Source: an uncultured Bradyrhizobium sp. (GTDB taxonomy: Bacteria > Pseudomonadota > Alphaproteobacteria > Rhizobiales > Xanthobacteraceae). From it: DNA of 64,000 bases. Location of the stretch: the NCBI RefSeq assembly GCF_947648125.1, contig NZ_CANSMR010000001.1:62001-126000 (forward strand), read 5' to 3'. The notes beneath the pieces are model-generated. The model saw nothing but the letters and a program-made list of their open reading frames with translations, ran no database searches and was not told where the DNA came from. This document shows, piece by piece, positions 7,593 to 62,645 of the stretch; the stretch's first letter is position 1, and each line of letters opens with the position of its first letter. The position numbers and the translations under genes are program-made.

Positions 7593-8323
7593 ACCAGCTC
7601 CTGCAGCTCGAAGGGGTCAGCAAGTCCTTTGGTGGGCTCCGTGCCCTGCACGATGTCGGATTTTCGGTGGAGGCCGGCGAGATCTTCGCCATCATCGGAC
7701 CAAACGGCGCCGGCAAGACAACCCTGTTCAACTGTATTGCCGGTGCGCAGAAACCGACCTCCGGCAGCATCATTTTCCAGGAGAGGCGGATCGACGGACT
7801 TCGCCCGCATGAGATCTGCAGGTCGGGCCTGGTACGGACCTTCCAGATCGTCAAGCCCTTCCTCGGGATGACGGTGGCCGACAACGTTCGTGTCGCCGCC
7901 TATGTGCACGAACGCCGAAACGCCGGCGCGGATGCCGTCGCGCGCGCGATGCTGAAGCAGGTCGGGCTCGACGACTATGCCGATGTCGGCGCCGACGAGC
8001 TGAATATTGCGCAGCTGCGCCGGCTCGAGATCGCCCGCGCAATGGCGACGCGGCCGCGGATGGTGCTGCTGGACGAGATGCTCGCCGGATTGACCGCGAC
8101 CGAGACGGAAGCGATCTGCGAGGAGCTTCGGGAGATCGCCCGGCAGGGTGTGGCGCTCGTCGTTGTCGAGCATTCCATCCCGGTCGTCAGCTCGTTGTGC
8201 TCGCGGGCCGTCGTCATCAATTTCGGCGAGGTCATGGCGCATGGGGCGACGCTCGATGTCATCCGTGATCCGCGCGTGCAGGAAGCTTATCTCGGCAAGG
8301 TCGAGGCGGTAGCCTGGTCATGA
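7589..8323 (+). CDS. Importer A: ATP-binding protein (LivG type)
   Basis: A 244-aa ABC ATPase. Walker A is GPNGAGKTT (37-45), Walker B is VLLDEM, and the switch His is in VVEHSI. The LSGGQ signature is replaced by LNIAQLRRLEIARAMA. A similar departure is seen in the other LivG-type subunits of this window, so it is a subfamily trait and not decay. The start and stop both overlap neighbours by 4 nt. Confidence 0.9.
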   Translation: MNQLLQLEGVSKSFGGLRALHDVGFSVEAGEIFAIIGPNGAGKTTLFNCIAGAQKPTSGSIIFQERRIDGLRPHEICRSGLVRTFQIVKPFLGMTVADNVRVAAYVHERRNAGADAVARAMLKQVGLDDYADVGADELNIAQLRRLEIARAMATRPRMVLLDEMLAGLTATETEAICEELREIARQGVALVVVEHSIPVVSSLCSRAVVINFGEVMAHGATLDVIRDPRVQEAYLGKVEAVAWS

Positions 8324-27326: not shown

Positions 27327-27710
27327 ATGTTTCTGTTCGAGACCTTCGAGCCGGGCAAGACGATCGGCAGCAGGACGCTGACGTTGAGCGCCGAGCTTCT
27401 GCAGCGATGGCTGACGCTGTTTCCGGACGACCACGATGGCGAGCGCATGCCTCCCGGCATGACCGCGGCGGTCTATAGCCGCGCCTATTCCGACATCCTC
27501 CAGCCGCGGCCGCCCGGCAACGTGCACGGTCAGCAGCTTTTCACGATCGCGAAGCTGCCCGTGGTCGGCGATACCCTGGTCACGGAGCTGCGTTGTGAGG
27601 GCAAGGAATTGAAGGGCGAGCGCCGCTGGGTCCGGTTCGCTTCCGAGACCCGACGGCAGGACGGCACGCTGATGTTCTCCGGGCTGATGACCACGCTATG
27701 GGCGAAGTGA
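27327..27710 (+). CDS. Hot-dog fold protein (MaoC-like, without catalytic dyad)
   Basis: A 127-aa protein resembling one half of a MaoC-type hydratase (MPPGMTAAVYSRAYSDIL, then VGDTLVTELRC and a basic strand KGERRWVRFASE). It lacks the Asp-x4-His dyad of active hydratases. The next gene is a MaoC protein with an intact dyad, so the two may form a heterodimer, as ChsH1 and ChsH2 do. Assignment rests on pattern and context. Confidence 0.65.
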   Translation: MFLFETFEPGKTIGSRTLTLSAELLQRWLTLFPDDHDGERMPPGMTAAVYSRAYSDILQPRPPGNVHGQQLFTIAKLPVVGDTLVTELRCEGKELKGERRWVRFASETRRQDGTLMFSGLMTTLWAK

Positions 27711-37790: not shown

Positions 37791-38757
37791 GCTTCGCTAT
37801 CTGCGCGCGGTCAACCAGGCGCTCAACGATGCGATGGCGGCCGATCCCGCCGTGATCCTGTTCGGCGAGGACGTCGGCGAAGCCGGCGGATCGTTCGGGG
37901 CGACGCGCGGTTTGCGCGATCGTTACGGGCCGAGCCGGGTGCGCGACACGCCGATTTCCGAAGCCACGATCGCCGGCGCCGCAGTTGGCGCGGCGCTGAG
38001 CGGACTGAAGCCGGTCGTCGAGATCATGTTCATGGATTTCACGACGCTCGTCATGGATGCGATGGTGAATCAGGCGGCGAAGGCCCGCTTCATGTTCGGC
38101 GGGCAGGGGTCGGTGCCGATGGTGCTGCGCACGCCGCATGGCGGCGGTCTCGGCGCCGGGCCGCAGCACTCGCAATGCCTCGAGGCGTGGTTTGCGCATG
38201 TCCCGGGCCTGAAGGTGGTCTGCCCGGCCGACCCGGTGAGTGCGTACGGACTGCTGCGCGCGGCGATCGATGATCCCGATCCGGTGATCGTGGTCGAAAA
38301 CAAGGCGCTCTACGCCATGAGAATGGACGCGCCTGAACGGCTCGACATCATCCCGATCGGGAAGGCGGCAACCATAAGAGCCGGACGCGACGTCACGATC
38401 GTGACCTATGGCGCGACGGTGAAGACGGCGCTCGACGCCGCCGAGCGGCTTGCGACGGACGGCGTCGAAGCCGAGGTGATCGATCTGCGTAGTCTTCAGC
38501 CGTGGGATGAGGCTGCTGTGCTGGCATCGCTGTCGAAAACCCATCGGTTTGTCGTGGTTCACGAGGCGGTCGAGGCCTTCGGCATCGGCGGCGAAATCGC
38601 CGCGCGGATGGCCGACATCGGTTTCGATGAACTCGACGGCCCGATCGTCCGGGTCGGCGCGCCCTTCATGCCGGTACCGTTTTCGCGGGCGCTCGAAAGC
38701 GCCTATCAGCCGACCGCGGACCGGGTGATCGCGGCCGTTCGGCGAACTCTGGATTGA
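37783..38757 (+). CDS. 2-oxoacid dehydrogenase E1 component, beta subunit
   Basis: A 324-aa transketolase-like subunit that begins MAELRYLRAVNQALNDAM, with FGEDVGEAGGSFGATRGL (24-41) and RVRDTPISEATIAGAAVG. The second half has the transketolase C-terminal domain (VTYGATVKTALDAAERL and HEAVEAFGIGGEIAAR). The start at ATG 37783 overlaps the alpha gene. It forms an alpha2beta2 E1 with the preceding product. Confidence 0.89.
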   Translation: MAELRYLRAVNQALNDAMAADPAVILFGEDVGEAGGSFGATRGLRDRYGPSRVRDTPISEATIAGAAVGAALSGLKPVVEIMFMDFTTLVMDAMVNQAAKARFMFGGQGSVPMVLRTPHGGGLGAGPQHSQCLEAWFAHVPGLKVVCPADPVSAYGLLRAAIDDPDPVIVVENKALYAMRMDAPERLDIIPIGKAATIRAGRDVTIVTYGATVKTALDAAERLATDGVEAEVIDLRSLQPWDEAAVLASLSKTHRFVVVHEAVEAFGIGGEIAARMADIGFDELDGPIVRVGAPFMPVPFSRALESAYQPTADRVIAAVRRTLD

Positions 38758-41992: not shown

Positions 41993-42269
41993 ATGTCGAG
42001 AGTTCCCCCACAGGCCGCATTGTCGCCGAACTTCGTCGCCGTGATCGGCGCTTCCGACCAGCCGGCCAAGCTACCGATAAGGTTACTCAAGCAACAAGGC
42101 TTTGCGGGGGCGATCTATCCAATCAATCCACGGACGGGACCGGGTCCGGGGGTTGCGGAGCTTCCCTCGCATTGCCGAGATCCCGACCAAGATTGATCTT
42201 GCGGTCATTGCGTCGGTGCGGAGGGCCAGAAAGCAGATGCTTCCGCGGATAGTCCGTCGGTTGCGCTAA
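41993..42269 (+). pseudogene. N-terminal fragment of an NDP-forming acyl-CoA synthetase
   Basis: The first 48 codons give LSPNFVAVIGASDQPAKL, then FAGAIYPINPR, the CoA-binding domain of the same family as 32773-34863. After about 42130 the homology moves to another frame (VRGLRSFPRIAEIPTKIDLA) and ends at a stop near 42269. About 90% of the gene is missing. It lies downstream of the acyl-CoA dehydrogenase, where an intact synthetase would have completed that operon. Confidence 0.75.
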
Positions 42270-42814
42270 GCGGCTCATCGGGATCGCCCGTTTCGGGCCT
42301 TCGGCGGTCTTCTCATCTTCTCTCTTGGTAAACGAGATGATACCGCCCTTGCAGGCGCAGTAGACGGCCTCTCCCCAAGAGCCGACGCGGCCAGCACCCA
42401 AGCTGACGTTGACAACGTGTCCAGATCCGTTCCTCACCATGCCAGGCAGAATCGCGTGATGCATGTGCGGCGGGCCAAAGATCGATGTCGATGATCTTCC
42501 ACAGATCAATGTCCGTTTCGAGGAACGACCTTGGCTCCTACCAGCCGGGGATGTTCACAGGAACGTCGATCGCTTCGCCTGCCTCGCAATAGGCCACGGC
42601 GGCGTCTCTAGGGCCTTGCGGCCGGTAATGTCGACAGTGTATCCGTGTGCCTTGCCGCCAGCATTTTTGATCGTTCTCACGGTTTGCCGGGCACCGCCTT
42701 CGTTGAGGTCGATCACTGCAACTTTGGATCCTTCCTCGGCAAAGTGGATACAGAACGCCCGATCCCGCTTCCACCGCCTCTGTCGATCATTCTCTTCCCT
42801 TTCAGTCCGCGCAA
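42240..42814 (-). pseudogene. SDR dehydrogenase remnant with several frameshifts
   Basis: Reading the minus strand in successive frames gives LRGLKGKRMIDRGGGSGIGR, AEEGSKVAVIDLNEGGARQT, NAGGKAHGYTVDITGRKALE, AIDVPVN, LETDIDLWK, then HHAILPGMVRNGSGHVVNVS and AVYCACKGGIISFTK. These are consecutive parts of one classical SDR, including the Tyr-x3-Lys site (YCACK). At least three frame changes separate them and the C-terminus is gone. The end abuts the synthetase fragment, marking a rearrangement point. Confidence 0.75.
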
Positions 42815-42868: not shown

Positions 42869-42886
42869 TTCTAACCCTTGTTAGAA
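42869..42886. promoter_or_regulatory. TTCTAAC-CCTT-GTTAGAA, candidate operator of the tandem TetR gene
   Basis: A perfect 18-bp inverted repeat that ends 45 bp before the ATG of the tandem TetR gene. A second copy with an intact right arm and the same 4-bp centre lies 44 bp upstream of the divergent target operon (49070-49087). Matching spacing on both promoters supports function. Confidence 0.7.
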
Positions 42887-42931: not shown

Positions 42932-44239
42932 ATGGAACGACACGTTACGCCGCCGAGCCCTGGCGACGAGTCTCACGGCAAGTCGGGACACACACGTCAA
43001 GCGATCCTCATGGCGGCGGCAAAGCTGTTTAAGGAGGACGGATACAACGCCACGACCATGCGGCGGATCGCCGATGCCGCAAGTCTGGAAGCCGGCAGCA
43101 TTTACTACCACTTCAAGTCAAAGGATCATATCCTGCATGAGGTCCTCGATATTGGCGTCCGACAGCTATACGATGAAGTAAAAATAGTTGTTGAACAGGC
43201 CAGAACGCAGGGAACTTCATTTCGGCAAACCTTCATCCGGCTTGTCGACACCCATCTAAATTTTCTCTTGACCAGAAGCGACTTTACCTCGGCCAACATC
43301 AGGAATTACCCCATTCTAACGGCGAAACGCCGCATGCCCCATCGGCGTTTGCGAGAAGGCTATGCGGAACTTTGGAGAACTTTCTTGCAGCAGGCCCAAG
43401 ACGCCGGCAATCTGCGTAAGGACATCTCGGTTATCCTGGTTAGCCGATTCATCCTCGGCGCCATGAACTGGACGGCGGAATGGTACAATACTGCGCGATA
43501 TCCGGTCGAGGTGCTGTCCGAACGCATGTCAAAGCTGTTGCTTGATGGCATGTGCGACAAGAGCATAACCGTTGCCGATCTCACGGTCGAGTCCTTCGGT
43601 ATCTTGACGGATGCGCGTGGAGAAGGTGGCAAGGCCGAGCGGACCCGGTATGCAATTCTGAGCGCCGCCGCCCGGATATTGCGAGAAAGCGGGTACAACG
43701 CAGCAACCATGCGTCGTGTGGCTTTGGAAGCGGGCCTCGAGGCCGGCAGCGTTTACTATCATTTCCGCTCCAAGACAGAAATCCTCGACGAAGTTCTGGA
43801 CATGGGCCTGCGTGATCTCTTGAAGGGCGTCAGCCATGCGATCGCCAGTTGGCCGAACAAAGAAGACCATCGAAACCGGATCGCGATCGCGATCGCGGCG
43901 CATATGGCGTATCTGTTCCGTGACAGCGCGTTCACGTCCGCCAACATCCGTATCTATGGAATGCTGTCAGAGAAGATGCGCTCGCGCCATCGGCCGATTC
44001 GGCACAAATACGCTACAGTTTGGGACCAGATGTTACGCGACGCGCAGAGGGCTGGGACATTGCGCTCGGACCTCAAGGTGGTTCCGCTGCGGCAATTTGT
44101 ACTGGGGGCATTGAATTGGACGATCGAATGGTTCGATCCCGGAAAGGGCGGCCAACGCGGATACTACACGCTTTCAGCCTTCACGGAGCTGCTCATCAAA
44201 ATGCTTCTGAACGGCATTTCGGCCACGGCTCAGCCTTGA
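42932..44239 (+). CDS. Tandem TetR/AcrR regulator: two complete TetR units in one chain
   Basis: A 435-aa protein, about twice the usual TetR length. Unit 1 has its helix-turn-helix at about 20-66 (GYNATTMRRIADAASLEAG, then SIYYHFKSK). Unit 2 repeats it at about 238-284 (GYNAATMRRVALEAGLEAG, then SVYYHFRSK). Each is followed by a matching ligand/dimer domain (FTSANIRNYPIL and FTSANIRIYGML; FILGAMNWTAEWY and FVLGALNWTIEWF). The linker is about residues 210-235. The chain looks like a duplicated and fused TetR that could fold as a single-chain dimer. It is convergent with the operon it probably represses. Confidence 0.88.
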   Translation: MERHVTPPSPGDESHGKSGHTRQAILMAAAKLFKEDGYNATTMRRIADAASLEAGSIYYHFKSKDHILHEVLDIGVRQLYDEVKIVVEQARTQGTSFRQTFIRLVDTHLNFLLTRSDFTSANIRNYPILTAKRRMPHRRLREGYAELWRTFLQQAQDAGNLRKDISVILVSRFILGAMNWTAEWYNTARYPVEVLSERMSKLLLDGMCDKSITVADLTVESFGILTDARGEGGKAERTRYAILSAAARILRESGYNAATMRRVALEAGLEAGSVYYHFRSKTEILDEVLDMGLRDLLKGVSHAIASWPNKEDHRNRIAIAIAAHMAYLFRDSAFTSANIRIYGMLSEKMRSRHRPIRHKYATVWDQMLRDAQRAGTLRSDLKVVPLRQFVLGALNWTIEWFDPGKGGQRGYYTLSAFTELLIKMLLNGISATAQP

Positions 44240-44271: not shown

Positions 44272-44673
44272 TTAGACCACCAGAAAATGGTGCAACCCTT
44301 CGGCCACGGGGCGGGAATCATCATCCTGCCAAGAGACCGTCCGCACGCTCGCCATGCGCTTGCCCTTCCGCGTCACGGTCGCCCTCACTATCAGCGGACC
44401 CTTGACCGCCGGGCGCAGATAATCGATCGTTAGATTGATCGGTTTAGGCGGCTGCCCATCTCGACCACTTTTTGCGGTGATCGCGGCGACCGCTTCCATG
44501 AGACTCGCGATGATCCCGCCATGGTAGTGTTCCATGATCGGATTGCCGATCAGCCGGTCGGCGAACGGCATTGTTGCGATTGCGTGCGTGTCATCGAACT
44601 CGGTAACCTTGAGATCGAGAAACCGGAAGAACGGGATCTTTCTGAACTGCAGGGTTATAGTTTCCGGCGTCAT
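44272..44673 (-). CDS. PaaI-type acyl-CoA thioesterase
   Basis: A 133-aa hot-dog thioesterase. HYHGGIIASLMEAVAAI (about 49-65) is the catalytic HGG motif with the following acidic residue, and INLTIDYLRPAVKGPLIVRA is the typical central strand. It hydrolyses acyl-CoAs, possibly freeing CoA from dead-end products. It overlaps the next thioesterase gene by 4 nt and is the last gene of the minus-strand operon. Confidence 0.87.
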   Translation of the reverse strand: MTPETITLQFRKIPFFRFLDLKVTEFDDTHAIATMPFADRLIGNPIMEHYHGGIIASLMEAVAAITAKSGRDGQPPKPINLTIDYLRPAVKGPLIVRATVTRKGKRMASVRTVSWQDDDSRPVAEGLHHFLVV

Positions 44674-45155
44674 TTGGAGGTTCTGCTCCGGGTCATCGCA
44701 TCGAGAAGGCTTCTCTCACCCCGCATGAGCGCGAAGCTCGCGGTGCCACGGGCCACTTCGGCCCGGTTCGGCTCGTCGAACCAGACCGTACCTGAATTGA
44801 AGGCGATATGGCGGGTCTGCCGGTAGCATTCGGCGCGCACCATGACGTCCGCTCGCGATCTGGCCGGCCGCAGATAATCGACGCGAAGGTCGAGTGTCGC
44901 CATGCTGCTGATCCTGTCGATCGCTACCAAATTCGCGAGCCCGAATACGCTATCGAGAAGGGCGGTCAGCACCCCGCCATGCAGCAGACTCTCGTCCTCA
45001 TCAGCACAGAAAGAGGGATTGAAGGGCATCCTCACCAGAACGCCATCGGTCGCGACCTTTTCGATCTTCAGGTTCATCTCGGTGATCAGACCATGCCCGC
45101 GATGATTCCACATCCTAGCGATCTGATCGAGTTTCTTCGGGTCTGGGAGGGTCAT
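44670..45155 (-). CDS. Second PaaI-type thioesterase
   Basis: A 161-aa hot-dog protein with LLHGGVLTALLDSVFGLA and the strand TLDLRVDYLRPARSRADVMV. I choose ATG 45155 (MTLPDPKKLDQIARMWN). The same frame stays open further upstream, but that part encodes debris of the crotonase pseudogene, so a longer call would be a false fusion. It is a paralogue of the 133-aa thioesterase that it overlaps. Confidence 0.82.
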   Translation of the reverse strand: MTLPDPKKLDQIARMWNHRGHGLITEMNLKIEKVATDGVLVRMPFNPSFCADEDESLLHGGVLTALLDSVFGLANLVAIDRISSMATLDLRVDYLRPARSRADVMVRAECYRQTRHIAFNSGTVWFDEPNRAEVARGTASFALMRGERSLLDAMTRSRTSK

Positions 45156-45171
45156 CTGCAGCGTCGATCCG

Positions 45172-45736
45172 TCAGAGGTTAGAAAACAACGACTTTCGTT
45201 TGTCGAAGAATGCGGCAACGCTTCGTGGTGTTCTTTGGTCTGGTCCATCAGCGCCTGATAGCCGGCGGCGATGCTCCAGGAAATCCGGCAGGTCCATGCG
45301 CTCGGCATTGGTGCATTAGCTGCTTGGGGACGCGCACCACGAGGGACGGCTTGGCGGCGATCACTGCAGCGCGCTCCTGCGCCCGCGCCCACGGCCGGGC
45401 CATTGACGGCCGCGATCGTGTGAAGATCGAGATTGCAGAGCGCGAGCGGTATCCGCGGAACGCCGGTGATGTAGCTGTCCACCGAAGCCAGCAAACCTTT
45501 GCGGAACACGCTTTCGGGGTCGGCCATCTCCTTGATGTCGCCGGCGCAAAAGGCCGGGTCGGCGCCGGTGAAAGGATCATGCCGCTGACCTCGGGATTGC
45601 GCTGCTCCTGGTCGAATGCGCCGAGCAGCCCCGCGATCATCTCATTGCCGGTGACGGGCTTCAGCCTGTCGGGGTCGTTGCGCGCCACTGTCGCGATGCG
45701 GTCGGCAATGTTCAGAACCACGATAGGTTCACTCAT
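45172..45736 (-). pseudogene. Enoyl-CoA hydratase pseudogene
   Basis: The start is intact (MSEPIVVLNIADRIATVARN) and overlaps the SDR stop by 8 nt, as in a living operon. Near 45560 the frame shifts to MADPESVFRKGLLASVDSYI and HTIAAVNGPAVGAGA. A further shift and an internal loss lead to a C-terminal piece (GYQALMDQTKEHHEAL, then AAFFDKRKSLFSNL) ending at 45172. Only about 565 bp remain of some 780. The oxyanion segment is disrupted, so no activity is expected. The pathway would then depend on another crotonase. Confidence 0.8.
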
Positions 45737-46586
45737 TCTTTCCGTCTCCCCGCACTCGCTTCTCGAACATGTCAGGATGGATCATGTCGCGAGCATCGTG
45801 ACCCATGTGTAGGGTTTCTCCTCCGTCCACATAGACGTCTTCGCCGGTGATGAACCCACCGACCTTGGAGGCAAGAAAGATGATCGTGGCCGCAACGTCT
45901 TCGGCCGCGCCGATGCGGTTCAGCACTGACCGGTTCAGTTCATGCCACCTCTGCGGCGGTATCGGGTAGCGGCCGAGCGCCTCGGTCTTGATCGTGCCGG
46001 GGGCCACGCAGTTGAGCCTGATTCCGTATTCGCCCCATTCGGCGGCGAGCGTCTTCATCAAGCCGGTGACACCTGCGCGCGCGGCAACGGTATGGGCAAA
46101 GCCCGTCAACGCCGTGCGGGTCGAGATCGCAGTTACGAACACGATCGAGCCGCCATTCTCGAACATGAAGTGATCGGCCGCGGCGCGTGTCATTTGCCAC
46201 GAGCCAATCAGATTGTTGCGGATGACCGCCTCGAATCCCTTGTTGGTGATGTCGCGGGCGGCTGCGATATACTGGCCGCCGGCGTTGTTCACAAGCACGT
46301 CGAGCCGGCCATAGTGATCCCTGATCTTCAGCATTGCCGCTTCGACACTCTCCTCGTTGCGGGTGTCGCCCGGCACGACCAAGGCTTCACCGCCGATGGC
46401 GCGGATCATCGCGGCGGTTTCCTGAAGCGGCTCCTCACGACGGGCGAAAAGAGCCAGCCTGGCTCCGCAGGAGGCCATTTCAAGCGCAGTGGCGCGGCCC
46501 ATGCCGGAGCCCGAGCCGGTCACGAGAGCCACCTGCCCCGACATGAGGTCGGGGGCGAAACGGCGCTGCACTTGTTCCTGTGCCAT
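45729..46586 (-). CDS. SDR family oxidoreductase lacking the Tyr/Lys pair
   Basis: A 285-aa SDR with TGSGSGMG, NNAGGQ and a C-terminal TGEDVYVDGG. At the YxxxK position it has HTVAARAG, so both Tyr and Lys are replaced (Thr and Arg). Dienoyl-CoA and trans-2-enoyl-CoA reductase relatives of the SDR family also lack this Tyr, so an enoyl-CoA or dienoyl-CoA reductase is a better guess than an alcohol dehydrogenase. ATG 46586 (MAQEQVQRRFAPD) is chosen over a longer frame without homology. Confidence 0.83.
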   Translation of the reverse strand: MAQEQVQRRFAPDLMSGQVALVTGSGSGMGRATALEMASCGARLALFARREEPLQETAAMIRAIGGEALVVPGDTRNEESVEAAMLKIRDHYGRLDVLVNNAGGQYIAAARDITNKGFEAVIRNNLIGSWQMTRAAADHFMFENGGSIVFVTAISTRTALTGFAHTVAARAGVTGLMKTLAAEWGEYGIRLNCVAPGTIKTEALGRYPIPPQRWHELNRSVLNRIGAAEDVAATIIFLASKVGGFITGEDVYVDGGETLHMGHDARDMIHPDMFEKRVRGDGKNE

Positions 46587-46596
46587 ATGCCACGCC

Positions 46597-47796
46597 TCAG
46601 TTCTTAAGAAGTTCGCCGGAGATAATGAGTTTGCGCACTTCCTGCGTACCCGCCCCCACCTCGAGCACGCGCCCCGTCCGGTAAAGGCGGTTGACCTCGG
46701 TGTTACGCATGTATCCCGATCCACCGTGAATCTGCACCGCGCGATCAAGGACGAAGGAGGTTGCCGCCGCCGCCTTGAAGATCGCTGCAGCCGTCAGCTT
46801 GTGAATCTCGCCGCGGCCGCCTTCGCCTTCCTCCAGCCCCTCGCACATCGCGGCGGTATGTAGCGCTAGGCTACGGGCGGCCTCGATCTCGGTATACATC
46901 TCGGCCAGCATCGCCTGGACCATTTGAAAGCTCGCAATCGGCTTGCCGAATTGTTGCCGTGTCTTGGCATAGTCGATCGAGATCTGCAGGGCTCGGCGCG
47001 AGATGCCCGTGGCGTTGAAGCAGACAATGGCTCTTTCAAGGTCCAGCCCCGACATTGTCACTGCCACGCCGCCGTCTGGCTTGCCTACCATGTTCTTCGC
47101 AGGCACCCTGCAATCCTCGAAAACCAACTCGCCAGTTGGCGAGCCGCGGAAGCCCATCTTGTTGAGCTTCTGCGCAACCTTGAAGCCCGGCGTGTCAGTT
47201 TCCACGATGAAGGCGGAAATGCCTTTGGCGCCCTTTTCGGGGGACGTCTTGGCATAGACCAGCACGACGTCGGCGATCGGTCCGTTGGTGATGTAGATCT
47301 TCGACCCGTTCAGGATGTAGTGGTCGCCATCCCCCTTCGCTGTGGTCCGCATCGAGCCAAGCGCGTCGGAGCCGGCACCGGGCTCGGTCAGGCCGAGCGC
47401 GCCGATCATCGTCCCGTTACAAAGGCCCGGCAGATACTTGCGTCGCAAAACGTCATTTGCGTTACGGTAGATATTGTTGACGCAGAGATTGTCGTGCGCG
47501 ACATGGCTAAGCCCGATCGCGGCGGAGGCGTGTGATAATTCCTCGGTGATGACGCAAGCCGAGGTGAAATCCAGCCCCGCCCCGCCATATTCCGGTGAAA
47601 CGTTCAGCCCCAGATAGCCCATTGCGCCGAGTTTCGGAAACACCGATGGCGGCAGATTGTCAGTCTCGTCCATCTGCGCGTTCAGATGATGGAACTCGGA
47701 AAAGAAGAACCTGTGGGCCTGATCGGCCAGCGCCTGCTGCTCTTCTGTCAGATAGTAGGTTCGCGGGCTGGACGAGTTGCGCAATTGTACATTCAT
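46597..47796 (-). CDS. Acyl-CoA dehydrogenase, isovaleryl-CoA dehydrogenase-like (copy 1)
   Basis: A 399-aa enzyme. The catalytic Glu sits at position 254 in SGLDLERA, the same place and motif as Glu254 of isovaleryl-CoA dehydrogenase, while the C-terminal site is GAGTQEVRK without the alternative Glu. The FAD signature is LGLTEPGAGSDALGSMRTTA. It oxidises a short branched acyl-CoA such as isovaleryl- or citronellyl-CoA. It lies 14 bp after a closely similar paralogue; both share long identical stretches (for example GFRGSPTGELVFEDCRVPA). Confidence 0.88.
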   Translation of the reverse strand: MNVQLRNSSSPRTYYLTEEQQALADQAHRFFFSEFHHLNAQMDETDNLPPSVFPKLGAMGYLGLNVSPEYGGAGLDFTSACVITEELSHASAAIGLSHVAHDNLCVNNIYRNANDVLRRKYLPGLCNGTMIGALGLTEPGAGSDALGSMRTTAKGDGDHYILNGSKIYITNGPIADVVLVYAKTSPEKGAKGISAFIVETDTPGFKVAQKLNKMGFRGSPTGELVFEDCRVPAKNMVGKPDGGVAVTMSGLDLERAIVCFNATGISRRALQISIDYAKTRQQFGKPIASFQMVQAMLAEMYTEIEAARSLALHTAAMCEGLEEGEGGRGEIHKLTAAAIFKAAAATSFVLDRAVQIHGGSGYMRNTEVNRLYRTGRVLEVGAGTQEVRKLIISGELLKN

Positions 47797-47810: not shown

Positions 47811-49025
47811 TCAGGCGCGCAGCAACTCTTCTGCGATGATGATCTTGCGCACCTCGCTCGTGCCTGCGCCGATCTCCAGAAGCTTGTTTGCTCGGAACAG
47901 GCGGTTGATCTCGGTATCCTGCATGTAACCCGAGCCGCCGTGGATGTGGCAGGCCTCCGTCACGGCCTTGTTGAACGCCTCGCCGGCATACAGGCAGGCC
48001 GCCGCGGTCAGCTTGTGAATCTCGCCGCGCCCGCCGGCGCCCTTGGGCAGGCCGACACAGGCGGCCAACGCCCGGTAGCCGAAGGCGCGGGCGGTCTCGA
48101 CTTCGGTGTAAATCTCGGCAAGCTTCGACTGCATCATTTGGAAACTGGCGATGGGCTTGCCGAATTGTTCGCGGATCTTGGCGTAGTCAAGCGCTAACTC
48201 TAGTGCGCGCTCGGCCATGCCCACGCAGATCGAGGCCACCATCGCGCGTTCCAGATCCAGCCCGCTCATCACCACCGACGTGCCGGTGTTTTCTGCCCCA
48301 ACCATCGCCGAGGCGGGCACTCGGCAGTCCTCGAAGACCAGCTCCCCCGTAGGCGATCCGCGGAAACCCATCTTGTCGAGCTTCTGCGCCACCTTGAAAC
48401 CGGGATTGTCGGTTTCGACGATGAAGGCCGAAATGCCTTTGGCGCCCTTCGACTTGTCGGTCTTGGCATAAACCAGGATGACATCGGCGATCGGGCCATT
48501 GGTGATGTAGATTTTCGATCCGTTGATGACGTAGTCGTCGCCGTCCCGGCGCGCCGTCGTCGCCATCGAACCCAGCGCGTCCGATCCGGCACCAGGCTCG
48601 GTTAGCCCGAGCGCGCCGACCAGTTCACCCTTGCACAGGCCGGGCACATACTTATTGATTTGTTCCTCCGAACCGTTGCGCAGAATATTGTTCAGACACA
48701 GATTGTCATGCGCGCCGTGCGAAAGACCTACCGCCGGGTTCCACTTGGAGATCACCCCGCAGACAAGCGCCTGAGTGAATTCGTTCTGCCCCGAGCCGCC
48801 CAGCTCTTCGGGCGCAGTGATGCCCAGCAGGCCCAACTTCCCCATCTGCTTGAAAAGATCTTGCGGCCACCACTCCTCGGCATCCATCTTCTCTTGAAGC
48901 GGATGCAGCACCTCGCGCGAGACGCGATCGACGTGATTCACGATCTGGCGCTGCTCATCCGTGAGCGAGTAGTTGGCCTTTATGGCCTCGATCGCTGCCA
49001 TTTCCGGTCCGGCTAGGACGTTCAT
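47811..49025 (-). CDS. Acyl-CoA dehydrogenase, isovaleryl-CoA dehydrogenase-like (copy 2)
   Basis: A 404-aa paralogue of the next gene, with the same motif SGLDLERA (Glu259), LGLTEPGAGSDALGSMATTA and GAGTSEVRKIII. The N-terminal third differs most between the copies, which suggests different acyl specificities or a heteromeric enzyme. It is the first gene of the minus-strand operon and lies 44 bp from the candidate operator of the tandem TetR. Confidence 0.88.
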   Translation of the reverse strand: MNVLAGPEMAAIEAIKANYSLTDEQRQIVNHVDRVSREVLHPLQEKMDAEEWWPQDLFKQMGKLGLLGITAPEELGGSGQNEFTQALVCGVISKWNPAVGLSHGAHDNLCLNNILRNGSEEQINKYVPGLCKGELVGALGLTEPGAGSDALGSMATTARRDGDDYVINGSKIYITNGPIADVILVYAKTDKSKGAKGISAFIVETDNPGFKVAQKLDKMGFRGSPTGELVFEDCRVPASAMVGAENTGTSVVMSGLDLERAMVASICVGMAERALELALDYAKIREQFGKPIASFQMMQSKLAEIYTEVETARAFGYRALAACVGLPKGAGGRGEIHKLTAAACLYAGEAFNKAVTEACHIHGGSGYMQDTEINRLFRANKLLEIGAGTSEVRKIIIAEELLRA

Positions 49026-49069: not shown

Positions 49070-49087
49070 ATCAAACATATGTTAGAA
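49070..49087. promoter_or_regulatory. ATCAAAC-ATAT-GTTAGAA, second tandem-TetR candidate site
   Basis: The right arm GTTAGAA is identical to that of 42869-42886, the left arm differs at two of seven bases and the 4-bp centre is conserved. The site is 44 bp upstream of the isovaleryl-CoA-dehydrogenase-like gene at 49025. An asymmetric site would suit a single-chain TetR with two non-identical binding heads. Confidence 0.6.
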
Positions 49088-61422: not shown

Positions 61423-62645
61423 TCACGCGTCCTTCCGGTCGACTACGAACGGAGCATCGGCCGGCAGTTCCTCGGCGCCCACCACCTCGATACGGTCGGC
61501 CTTCAGACGCGACAGCGCGTTGAAGCGGCCCGGCGCGGCCGCCATGACGGCGTCGCGGTCCGCGTCCGGAAGCAGCGAAAGCCGCACCGTGATTTCGTCC
61601 CGCAGTTGCGGGCGAGTGACGATGGCCTGGGCGCGGCCGATTCCTGGAATGGCAATGGCGAGGTCTTCGAGCTGCCGCGGATAGATGAATATCTCTCGCG
61701 CGCTTTCACCGCCTGGCCGACGCGCCCTGCAGCATGCCGATCCTGCGCACTGTGCCATCGGCATTCGTTGCCGTGGCGGCGGCGACATCGCCGGTCCCGA
61801 ACCGGATCAGCGGCCAGCCTGGCGTCAGCGTGGTGACCACGATCTCGCCGGGCTCGCCCTGCGGAAGTGGAACTCCGGTCGCCGGCTCGCAGATCTGCAC
61901 TATACGGTCCTGATGAATCTCGTAGCCGCCATCCTGCGCCCCATTTTCGAAGCCGATCACGCCGAAGTCTGCCGTCGCATACACTGCGAAGGTCCGGATG
62001 CCGTATCTGGCTTCCAAACGACGGCGCTTGCCGAGCCAGTCGCCGAGTTCGCCGCCGAGCAAGGCGGTTCTGACCTGCCAGCCACCGGGTAGCGGATGAC
62101 CCATCGCCTCGATGGCTTCGGCGAGCGTGACAAAGAAGGTGGTCGAGGCGCAGATGCAGGTCACGCCAAGATCGATCACCAGCTTCGCCTGCAGTTCGCT
62201 GCCGCCTGTGCCGGGCTGGAATCACCGTCGCACCGACGGAGCGCAGGCCTTCGTCGAGCAGAAGGCCGGCAGGCACGAGATGATAGGACCAGGTGTTGAG
62301 CACGCGATCGCCGGGGCCGAGGCCGGCGGCGGCAAAGGCGGTGCCGAAGCCACAGCCGTCGCGATCGTGCCTGAAGTGGGGTTCGTTGATGGGGCCAGGA
62401 GAGACGAAGATGCGGACGATTTCTTCATCCTTTGCTGCAAGTAATCCCCCGAATACCGGTCGCTGGCGTTGCAGCTCGACCAGCGACTCCTTTTTGAACA
62501 CAGGCAGCCGCGACAGATCGTCCACGGTCTTGAGATCGGCTGGAGCGAGGCCTGCGCGATCGAACATCTCCCGAACGGAGGGTGCGAGCTGGTAGGCCGC
62601 ATGCTGGATCTGCTACAGCAGTGTGAAGCGCGTCTCCCGGCTCAT
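61423..62645 (-). pseudogene. Phenylacetate-CoA ligase-like gene, inactivated by one nonsense codon and at least three frameshifts
   Basis: From ATG 62645 the frame meets an in-frame TAG at codon 11 (62613-62615), then reads MFDRAGLAPADLKTVDDLSR and AAAGLGPGDRVLNTWSYHLV. Near 62217 the homology moves frame (GTGGSELQAKLVIDLGVTCI, LTPGWPLIRFGTGDVAAATA). It moves again near 61725 (GRVGQAVKAR) and near 61705 (IFIYPRQLEDLAIAIPGIGR). Together these form nearly a full PaaK-type adenylating enzyme. It once could have activated an aromatic or alicyclic acid for importer D, a job now presumably done by the ligase at 55371. Confidence 0.82.

Follow-up and report, generated by a model that had tools for sequence, protein, structure and literature searches.

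The window, a 64,000-nucleotide stretch of DNA from an uncultured Bradyrhizobium sp., encodes a tandem TetR regulator (tTetR) that would act as a covalent single-chain pseudo-dimer, repressing an acyl-CoA catabolic regulon through a palindromic operator. From sequence comparisons, we put the probability of this reading at about two in three. An intragenic tandem duplication fused two TetR units via a linker of ~ 24 residues. In the proposed mechanism, these units most likely pack together within the chain, like the subunits of an ordinary TetR dimer, and would thereby present two near-equal helix-turn-helix (HTH) motifs to a single 18-bp palindrome, WTCTAACRNNYGTTAGAW. Since the predicted sites sit in divergent promoters, tTetR probably represses itself together with the SDR, the two acyl-CoA dehydrogenases, the enoyl-CoA hydratase and the thioesterases. 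Elsewhere in the same genome, an AtuA-carboxylase operon would also be under its repression, which would be lifted when an acyl-CoA intermediate binds the protein. The features are collected in Table 1.

Table 1. Features of the tTetR locus, in window positions
Feature	Positions	Strand	Remarks
BadH-like SDR remnant, divergent	42246..42814	-	in two frames with one stop; open frame in relatives, e.g. L100
Predicted operator 1, TTCTAACCCTTGTTAGAA, upstream of tTetR	42869..42886	.	perfect palindrome except for the 4-base centre
tTetR, tandem TetR regulator gene, 435 aa	42932..44239	+	open frame, Pfam, relatives
N-terminal TetR unit, residues 16-212	42977..43567	+	HTH at 43004-43144
Linker, residues 209-232	43556..43627	+	relaxed selection; 23-26 aa in 17/17 aligned sequences
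C-terminal TetR unit, residues 233-435	43628..44236	+	HTH at 43655-43795
PaaI-type hotdog thioesterase	44272..44673	-	
Second hotdog thioesterase	44670..45218	-	
Broken enoyl-CoA hydratase	45216..45775	-	fragments in two frames; open frame in relatives, e.g. L012
SDR oxidoreductase	45729..46748	-	start uncertain (longest frame overlaps next gene)
Acyl-CoA dehydrogenase	46597..47796	-	
Acyl-CoA dehydrogenase	47811..49025	-	first gene of the operon, behind predicted operator 2
Predicted operator 2, ATCAAACATATGTTAGAA, ahead of the acyl-CoA dehydrogenase operon	49070..49087	.	2 mismatches

The tTetR frame runs from the ATG at 42932 to the stop at 44239 with no internal stop, and it contains, as the original prediction had it, two full TetR units. 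TetR_N (PF00440) and TetR_C_24 (PF17932) each match in two stretches (whole-protein scores of 114.4 and 106.8 bits; Pfam cut-offs 24 and 26.4), giving the TetR-family combination of an HTH domain with a helical C-terminal ligand and dimer domain. The halves align over nearly their full length, with 87 of 199 positions identical (44%). A description of the two HTH regions as nearly identical over about 40 residues was overstated, as they share 67% identity over 51 aligned positions; the ligand domains share 37% over 138. Across 17 tTetR proteins, half-versus-half identity spans 53-67% in the HTH and 25-45% in the ligand domain, and the C unit has a 6-residue insertion ahead of its last helix that is lacking in the N unit. 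The recognition helices read EAGSIYYHF in the N half and EAGSVYYHF in the C half, with K or Q as the first residue in 7 of the 17 aligned C halves. Many ligand-domain positions are fixed in both sets of aligned halves, but differently in each, which makes differing ligand faces possible. Codon comparisons, in which several pairs are saturated, give computable dN/dS ratios of 0.05-0.33 in the HTH and ligand domains of both halves and of 0.46-1.9 in the linker. Among named families, the NCBIfam model for ScbR autoregulator-binding proteins (NF041196) gives 166.6 bits against a cut-off of 150, but this score adds up two stretches, and the label was not adopted for tTetR. The FadR model stays below its cut-off (117 versus 200 bits).

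The gene order around tTetR is conserved. In 23 of 28 sources, a match to a divergent SDR is found upstream of the regulator. The window has a remnant of this gene, and no such match is seen in L023, L102, L103 and L135. The SDR of L100 scores 361 bits against BadH, below the cut-off of 431. A convergent operon of two hotdog thioesterases, an enoyl-CoA hydratase, an SDR and two acyl-CoA dehydrogenases is present in 19 of the 28, the window included. Within the window, regulator and dehydrogenase genes have full-length open frames, while the divergent SDR and the enoyl-CoA hydratase have decayed. In the annotated plasmids L109, L110, L112, L135 and L137, an AtuA gene comes next, with biotin carboxylase genes in four of the five. 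The combination of AtuA, the BadH-like SDR and paired dehydrogenases suggests a branched, isoprenoid or alicyclic acyl-CoA as the substrate of the regulon. The literature on the catabolic cluster, among the matches listed, contains nothing on tTetR. A promoter scan gave three promoter-like matches, about equal to the shuffle mean of 2.2.

A different acyl-CoA operon adjoins tTetR in L017 and L091, and their near-copies L092 and L093 look alike. The first gene of this operon, behind a predicted operator, encodes a conserved protein that contains the motif VDSDSPEV (in L091, VDSDSAEV), at L017:14147-14908, L091:4132-4857 and, in the genome of the window, G000:C1:228394-229095; for the L017 copy, neither NCBIfam (at 1e-15) nor Pfam (at 1e-8) gives a match. 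In the window, the decayed genes of the catabolic island also include a PaaK-like pseudogene in several frames (61429-62597).

The operator predicted here for tTetR, an 18-bp palindrome conserved in relatives, is new. The 34 distinct predicted sites behind the consensus were gathered with a palindromic pattern, so that a ranking free of symmetry is the fairer test of their symmetry. To this end, the upstream regions of 14 tTetR relatives were aligned and their windows ranked by conservation with no symmetry assumed. Among 155 windows of 16 bases, TCTAACACTTGTTAGA is the most conserved and also the most palindromic, with 7 of 8 pairs. At window lengths of 14 and 18 bases, the palindromic frame again comes out on top for symmetry, ranking third and second in conservation, respectively. 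In a first run, which dropped gapped windows, the palindromic 18-mer went unscored, and the highest symmetry (6 of 9 pairs) fell to another, less conserved 18-mer.

With the pattern TTCTAACNNNNGTTAGAA and up to 3 mismatches, the window contains two sites against 0.37 expected, and two or more occur in 6 of 100 shuffles; taken alone, the two sites are only mildly unusual. A site at this threshold lies upstream of tTetR in 26 of the 28 sources scanned (with 3 mismatches in L101), the exceptions being L102 and L103, the latter with just 52 bases upstream. A site also precedes the acyl-CoA dehydrogenase operon in all 19 sources that have this operon, sources that are not independent, as several are near-copies and the dehydrogenases are ~ 90% identical. 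Three plasmid regions were retrieved once the motif had been fixed; in this test, which covers part of each region's annotated genes, 7 of 7 sites fall in expected promoters, ahead of the regulator, an OYE/dehydrogenase pair or the dehydrogenase operon. Palindromes built from shuffled half-sites average 0.01-0.03 matches in the same regions, with at most 2 per region. At 18 single-TetR loci, no site with up to 2 mismatches was found near the TetR start, and one lies elsewhere (L026). Beyond the sites assigned to genes, a few more occur in L092, L101 and L109, and one site in L109, with 3 mismatches, is intragenic. Operator-like pairs with 1-3 mismatches, 82-83 bases apart, are seen at 38467 and 38550 in L109 and at 27485 and 27567 in L110, the L110 pair being flanked by genes for a hexapeptide transferase and a lipid-transfer protein.

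The pattern WTCWAACNNNNGTTNGAW, which was derived from sites found before, matches 8 distinct sites in the 8.57 Mb of the genome that carries the window, against one match per strand for the reversed control. Seven of the eight lie within 180 kb of contig C1, at 48-228 kb (the window is C1:62001-126000). One is placed ~ 150 bases ahead of the AtuA-carboxylase operon, 87 kb from the dehydrogenase operon, whereas the two operons are adjacent on the plasmids. Another, with 0 mismatches, precedes the operon that adjoins the regulator in L017 and L091, where a site is found too. The sites thus seem to travel with their operons. The tandem protein probably still recognises an ordinary palindromic site. 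The suggestion that the halves could evolve different half-site preferences finds little support, given the much alike recognition helices and the symmetry of the predicted operator.

A natural double TetR is already known. Mce3R of Mycobacterium tuberculosis (PDB 9b7y) is described, in the sections of PMC11667970 drawn on here, as a natural double TetR-family regulator (TFR) with an omega-shaped single-chain fold, which represses itself and a lipid-related regulon and binds a 25-bp asymmetric site. The relevant part of PMC4482099 gives palindromes as the typical TFR sites, to which the Mce3R motif does not conform. Like Mce3R, tTetR has two TetR units per chain; unlike it, tTetR has a predicted site that is palindromic. 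The family looks like a double TFR with a differing predicted site. The best stretches against 9b7y, one per search and spanning the HTH regions only, pair the N HTH of tTetR with the first HTH of Mce3R and the C HTH with the second. Mce3R is the only recognised case of a natural double TetR among the matches listed from the open-licence literature, and the part of PMC5882156 consulted has nothing on double TetRs. A PDB search shows that KstR2 and FadR chains match the tTetR family profile; these are homodimers with one unit per chain (for KstR2, described as such in the same portion of PMC11667970), whereas tTetR has two units per chain.

The asymmetric site of Mce3R suggests that fusion serves asymmetric recognition. 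Since the operator of the tTetR family seems to have stayed symmetric, the fusion must here pay otherwise, by obligate pairing, by insulation from paralogues or by providing two ligand faces. Pairing within the chain is suggested by the symmetry of the site and of the halves, together with the precedent of Mce3R. However, a palindrome does not imply that the two HTHs bound to it belong to the same chain. Two chains could instead share each palindrome, pairing N with N and C with C (or swapped), as a dimer with four HTHs that loops two operators. For Mce3R, the consulted text of PMC11667970 reports a further step, in which the intramolecularly folded chains elute as a homodimer, dimerise through helix 15 and hold two DNA duplexes. 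Most of our sources also have two or more sites, which lie ~ 6.4 kb apart in L012, and the closely spaced pairs of L109 and L110 would fit looping as well. For single 18-bp palindromes spaced as for the single-unit paralogue described below, however, two HTHs suffice, and we regard the two-chain arrangement as unlikely. A dimer of pseudo-dimers like that of Mce3R would in any case extend the single-chain pseudo-dimer reading rather than displace it.

The paralogue allows for a closer comparison. L095, a single-unit TetR of 222 aa encoded in the same region of the window's genome, is 38% identical to the C half of tTetR, and the HTH regions of the tandem and the single protein are much alike. 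Such single paralogues (L095, L116, L122-L126) have one unit of about 210-220 aa where tTetR has two, and often share a plasmid with it. Their promoters carry CTAAC-N4-GTTAG without mismatch in 7 of 7 cases examined (L095 and six of 17 plasmid orthologues), with the core and spacing of the tandem sites. Because core and spacing are shared, it seems that the two HTHs of the tandem chain recognise the same geometry as the two of the presumed homodimer. The likeness also leaves the assignment of protein to site ambiguous, so that the palindromes might belong to the single paralogue, with the tandem protein binding elsewhere. Of the 17 plasmids with a single paralogue at 1e-60, 16 also carry the tandem. 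The flanks are unlike, however, being WT..AW at the tandem sites and mostly AC..TT at the paralogue sites. Moreover, 23 of 39 alphaproteobacterial tandem plasmids, 19 of them from Pseudosulfitobacter, have no single paralogue at 1e-60; L135 and L137, which belong to these and were both scanned, have sites all the same. Other replicons may carry the single gene in such strains, as does another plasmid of the strain in Sagittula MA-2. Autoregulated TetR proteins usually have a site upstream of their own, divergently oriented gene, and the position of the predicted operator upstream of tTetR fits this layout. Assigning the sites to the paralogue alone therefore appears quite improbable, and more so than sharing of each palindrome by two chains.

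The co-occurrence of tandem and paralogue on plasmids, their common half-site core and their much alike recognition helices also raise the idea that the fusion is a natural form of insulation. Covalent pairing would prevent mixed dimers of tandem and paralogue subunits, so that control of the two regulators stays separate despite their near-identical palindromes. We offer this tentatively, at well under even odds. Its engineered counterpart is sc-rtTA, in which, according to the portion of PMC1797012 used here, two TetR moieties are joined head to tail via a linker and fold intramolecularly, with the purpose of stopping heterodimerisation between co-expressed Tet systems. tTetR likewise consists of two TetR moieties and a linker, but it is natural and its halves have diverged. 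If the insulation idea holds, nature has reached, more than once, the remedy engineered into single-chain Tet proteins. The benefit of the fusion is directly testable, given the predicted sites, the matched paralogue with one unit and the environmental hosts.

The tandem is rare in sampled whole genomes. A scan of 84,980 species genomes gave at least 79 loci, and among the matches listed 14 (L012-L025) are full-length, every one a single open frame with two TetR units; in all, 21 loci besides the window hold the two units within one open frame. Among 72,556 plasmid records, 42 match tTetR in one piece at 1e-40, of which 39 are alphaproteobacterial (54-73% identity) and 3 are from Rhodococcus (30%); 13 of the 42 plasmids are typed conjugative. 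In overlapping genome samples at 1e-60, tTetR is found in 3 genomes among 264 others from the genus, in 1 among 396 from the order (a partial match where a contig starts), in 2 among 384 from the class (one of them carrying two copies) and in none of 397 from the phylum. Horizontal transfer fits the near-identical proteins seen in Aliihoeflea, Mesorhizobium and Enterovirga. The search for relatives with two TetR_N domains, proposed along with the original prediction, thus recovered the same one-frame architecture with conserved neighbours. An artefact joining two neighbouring TetR genes, which had been named as what would overturn the prediction, can be dismissed for practical purposes, as nothing was found in its favour and it is refuted by the one-frame loci, the one-piece plasmid matches and a linker of 23-26 residues in 17 of 17 sequences.

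The origin of the tandem was followed with two trees, the first of which holds 61 rows and no Mce3R: the halves of 18 of 22 family proteins (leaving out the near-copies L014, L020, L022 and L093), the halves of L094 and 23 single TetRs. Here, 17 of the N halves cluster in a clade (100/98), as do 17 of the C halves (100/98), and these two clades plus L103 are separated at 99/98 from the single TetRs included; the L094 halves are placed elsewhere on long branches. The proposed duplication and fusion are borne out by this pattern, which places a single duplication before nearly all of the alphaproteobacterial family. The tandem TetR of L103 (53-1198, on a short MAG contig) has halves that look, by eye, far more alike than those of the rest of the family. 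They group together (95/91) in the second tree, which comprises 11 family proteins, the Rhodococcus tandem and 17 single TetRs, pointing to either a later duplication or gene conversion.

In the second tree, the halves of the Rhodococcus tandem group with actinobacterial single TetRs (100/99). A common origin of all tandem TetRs was rejected, as holding 11 N halves (without L103) as one clade lowers the log-likelihood by 57.6 (AU p ~ 1e-58), the tested group being named by position although the first tree had already been seen. Taken together, placement and test indicate that tandem TetRs arose more than once and that the Rhodococcus tandem is a separate fusion. Its gene lies on plasmid pRB98 (L111 7971-9293), with a palindrome of 4-base centre, CCTAATCCAGATTAGG, upstream at 7688; relatives were found in 0 of the genomes of seven other loci at 1e-25.

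Among 95 matches, from a search in which 150 of 274 candidates were scored, inspection by eye gave only two frames with two TetR_N domains in the genome that carries the window. Besides tTetR, this is a second, unrelated tandem TetR of 453 aa (G000:C12:139004-140362; L094, L118), in which TetR_N and TetR_C_24 occur twice each and which is present in 32 of 256 genomes of the genus, its own included.
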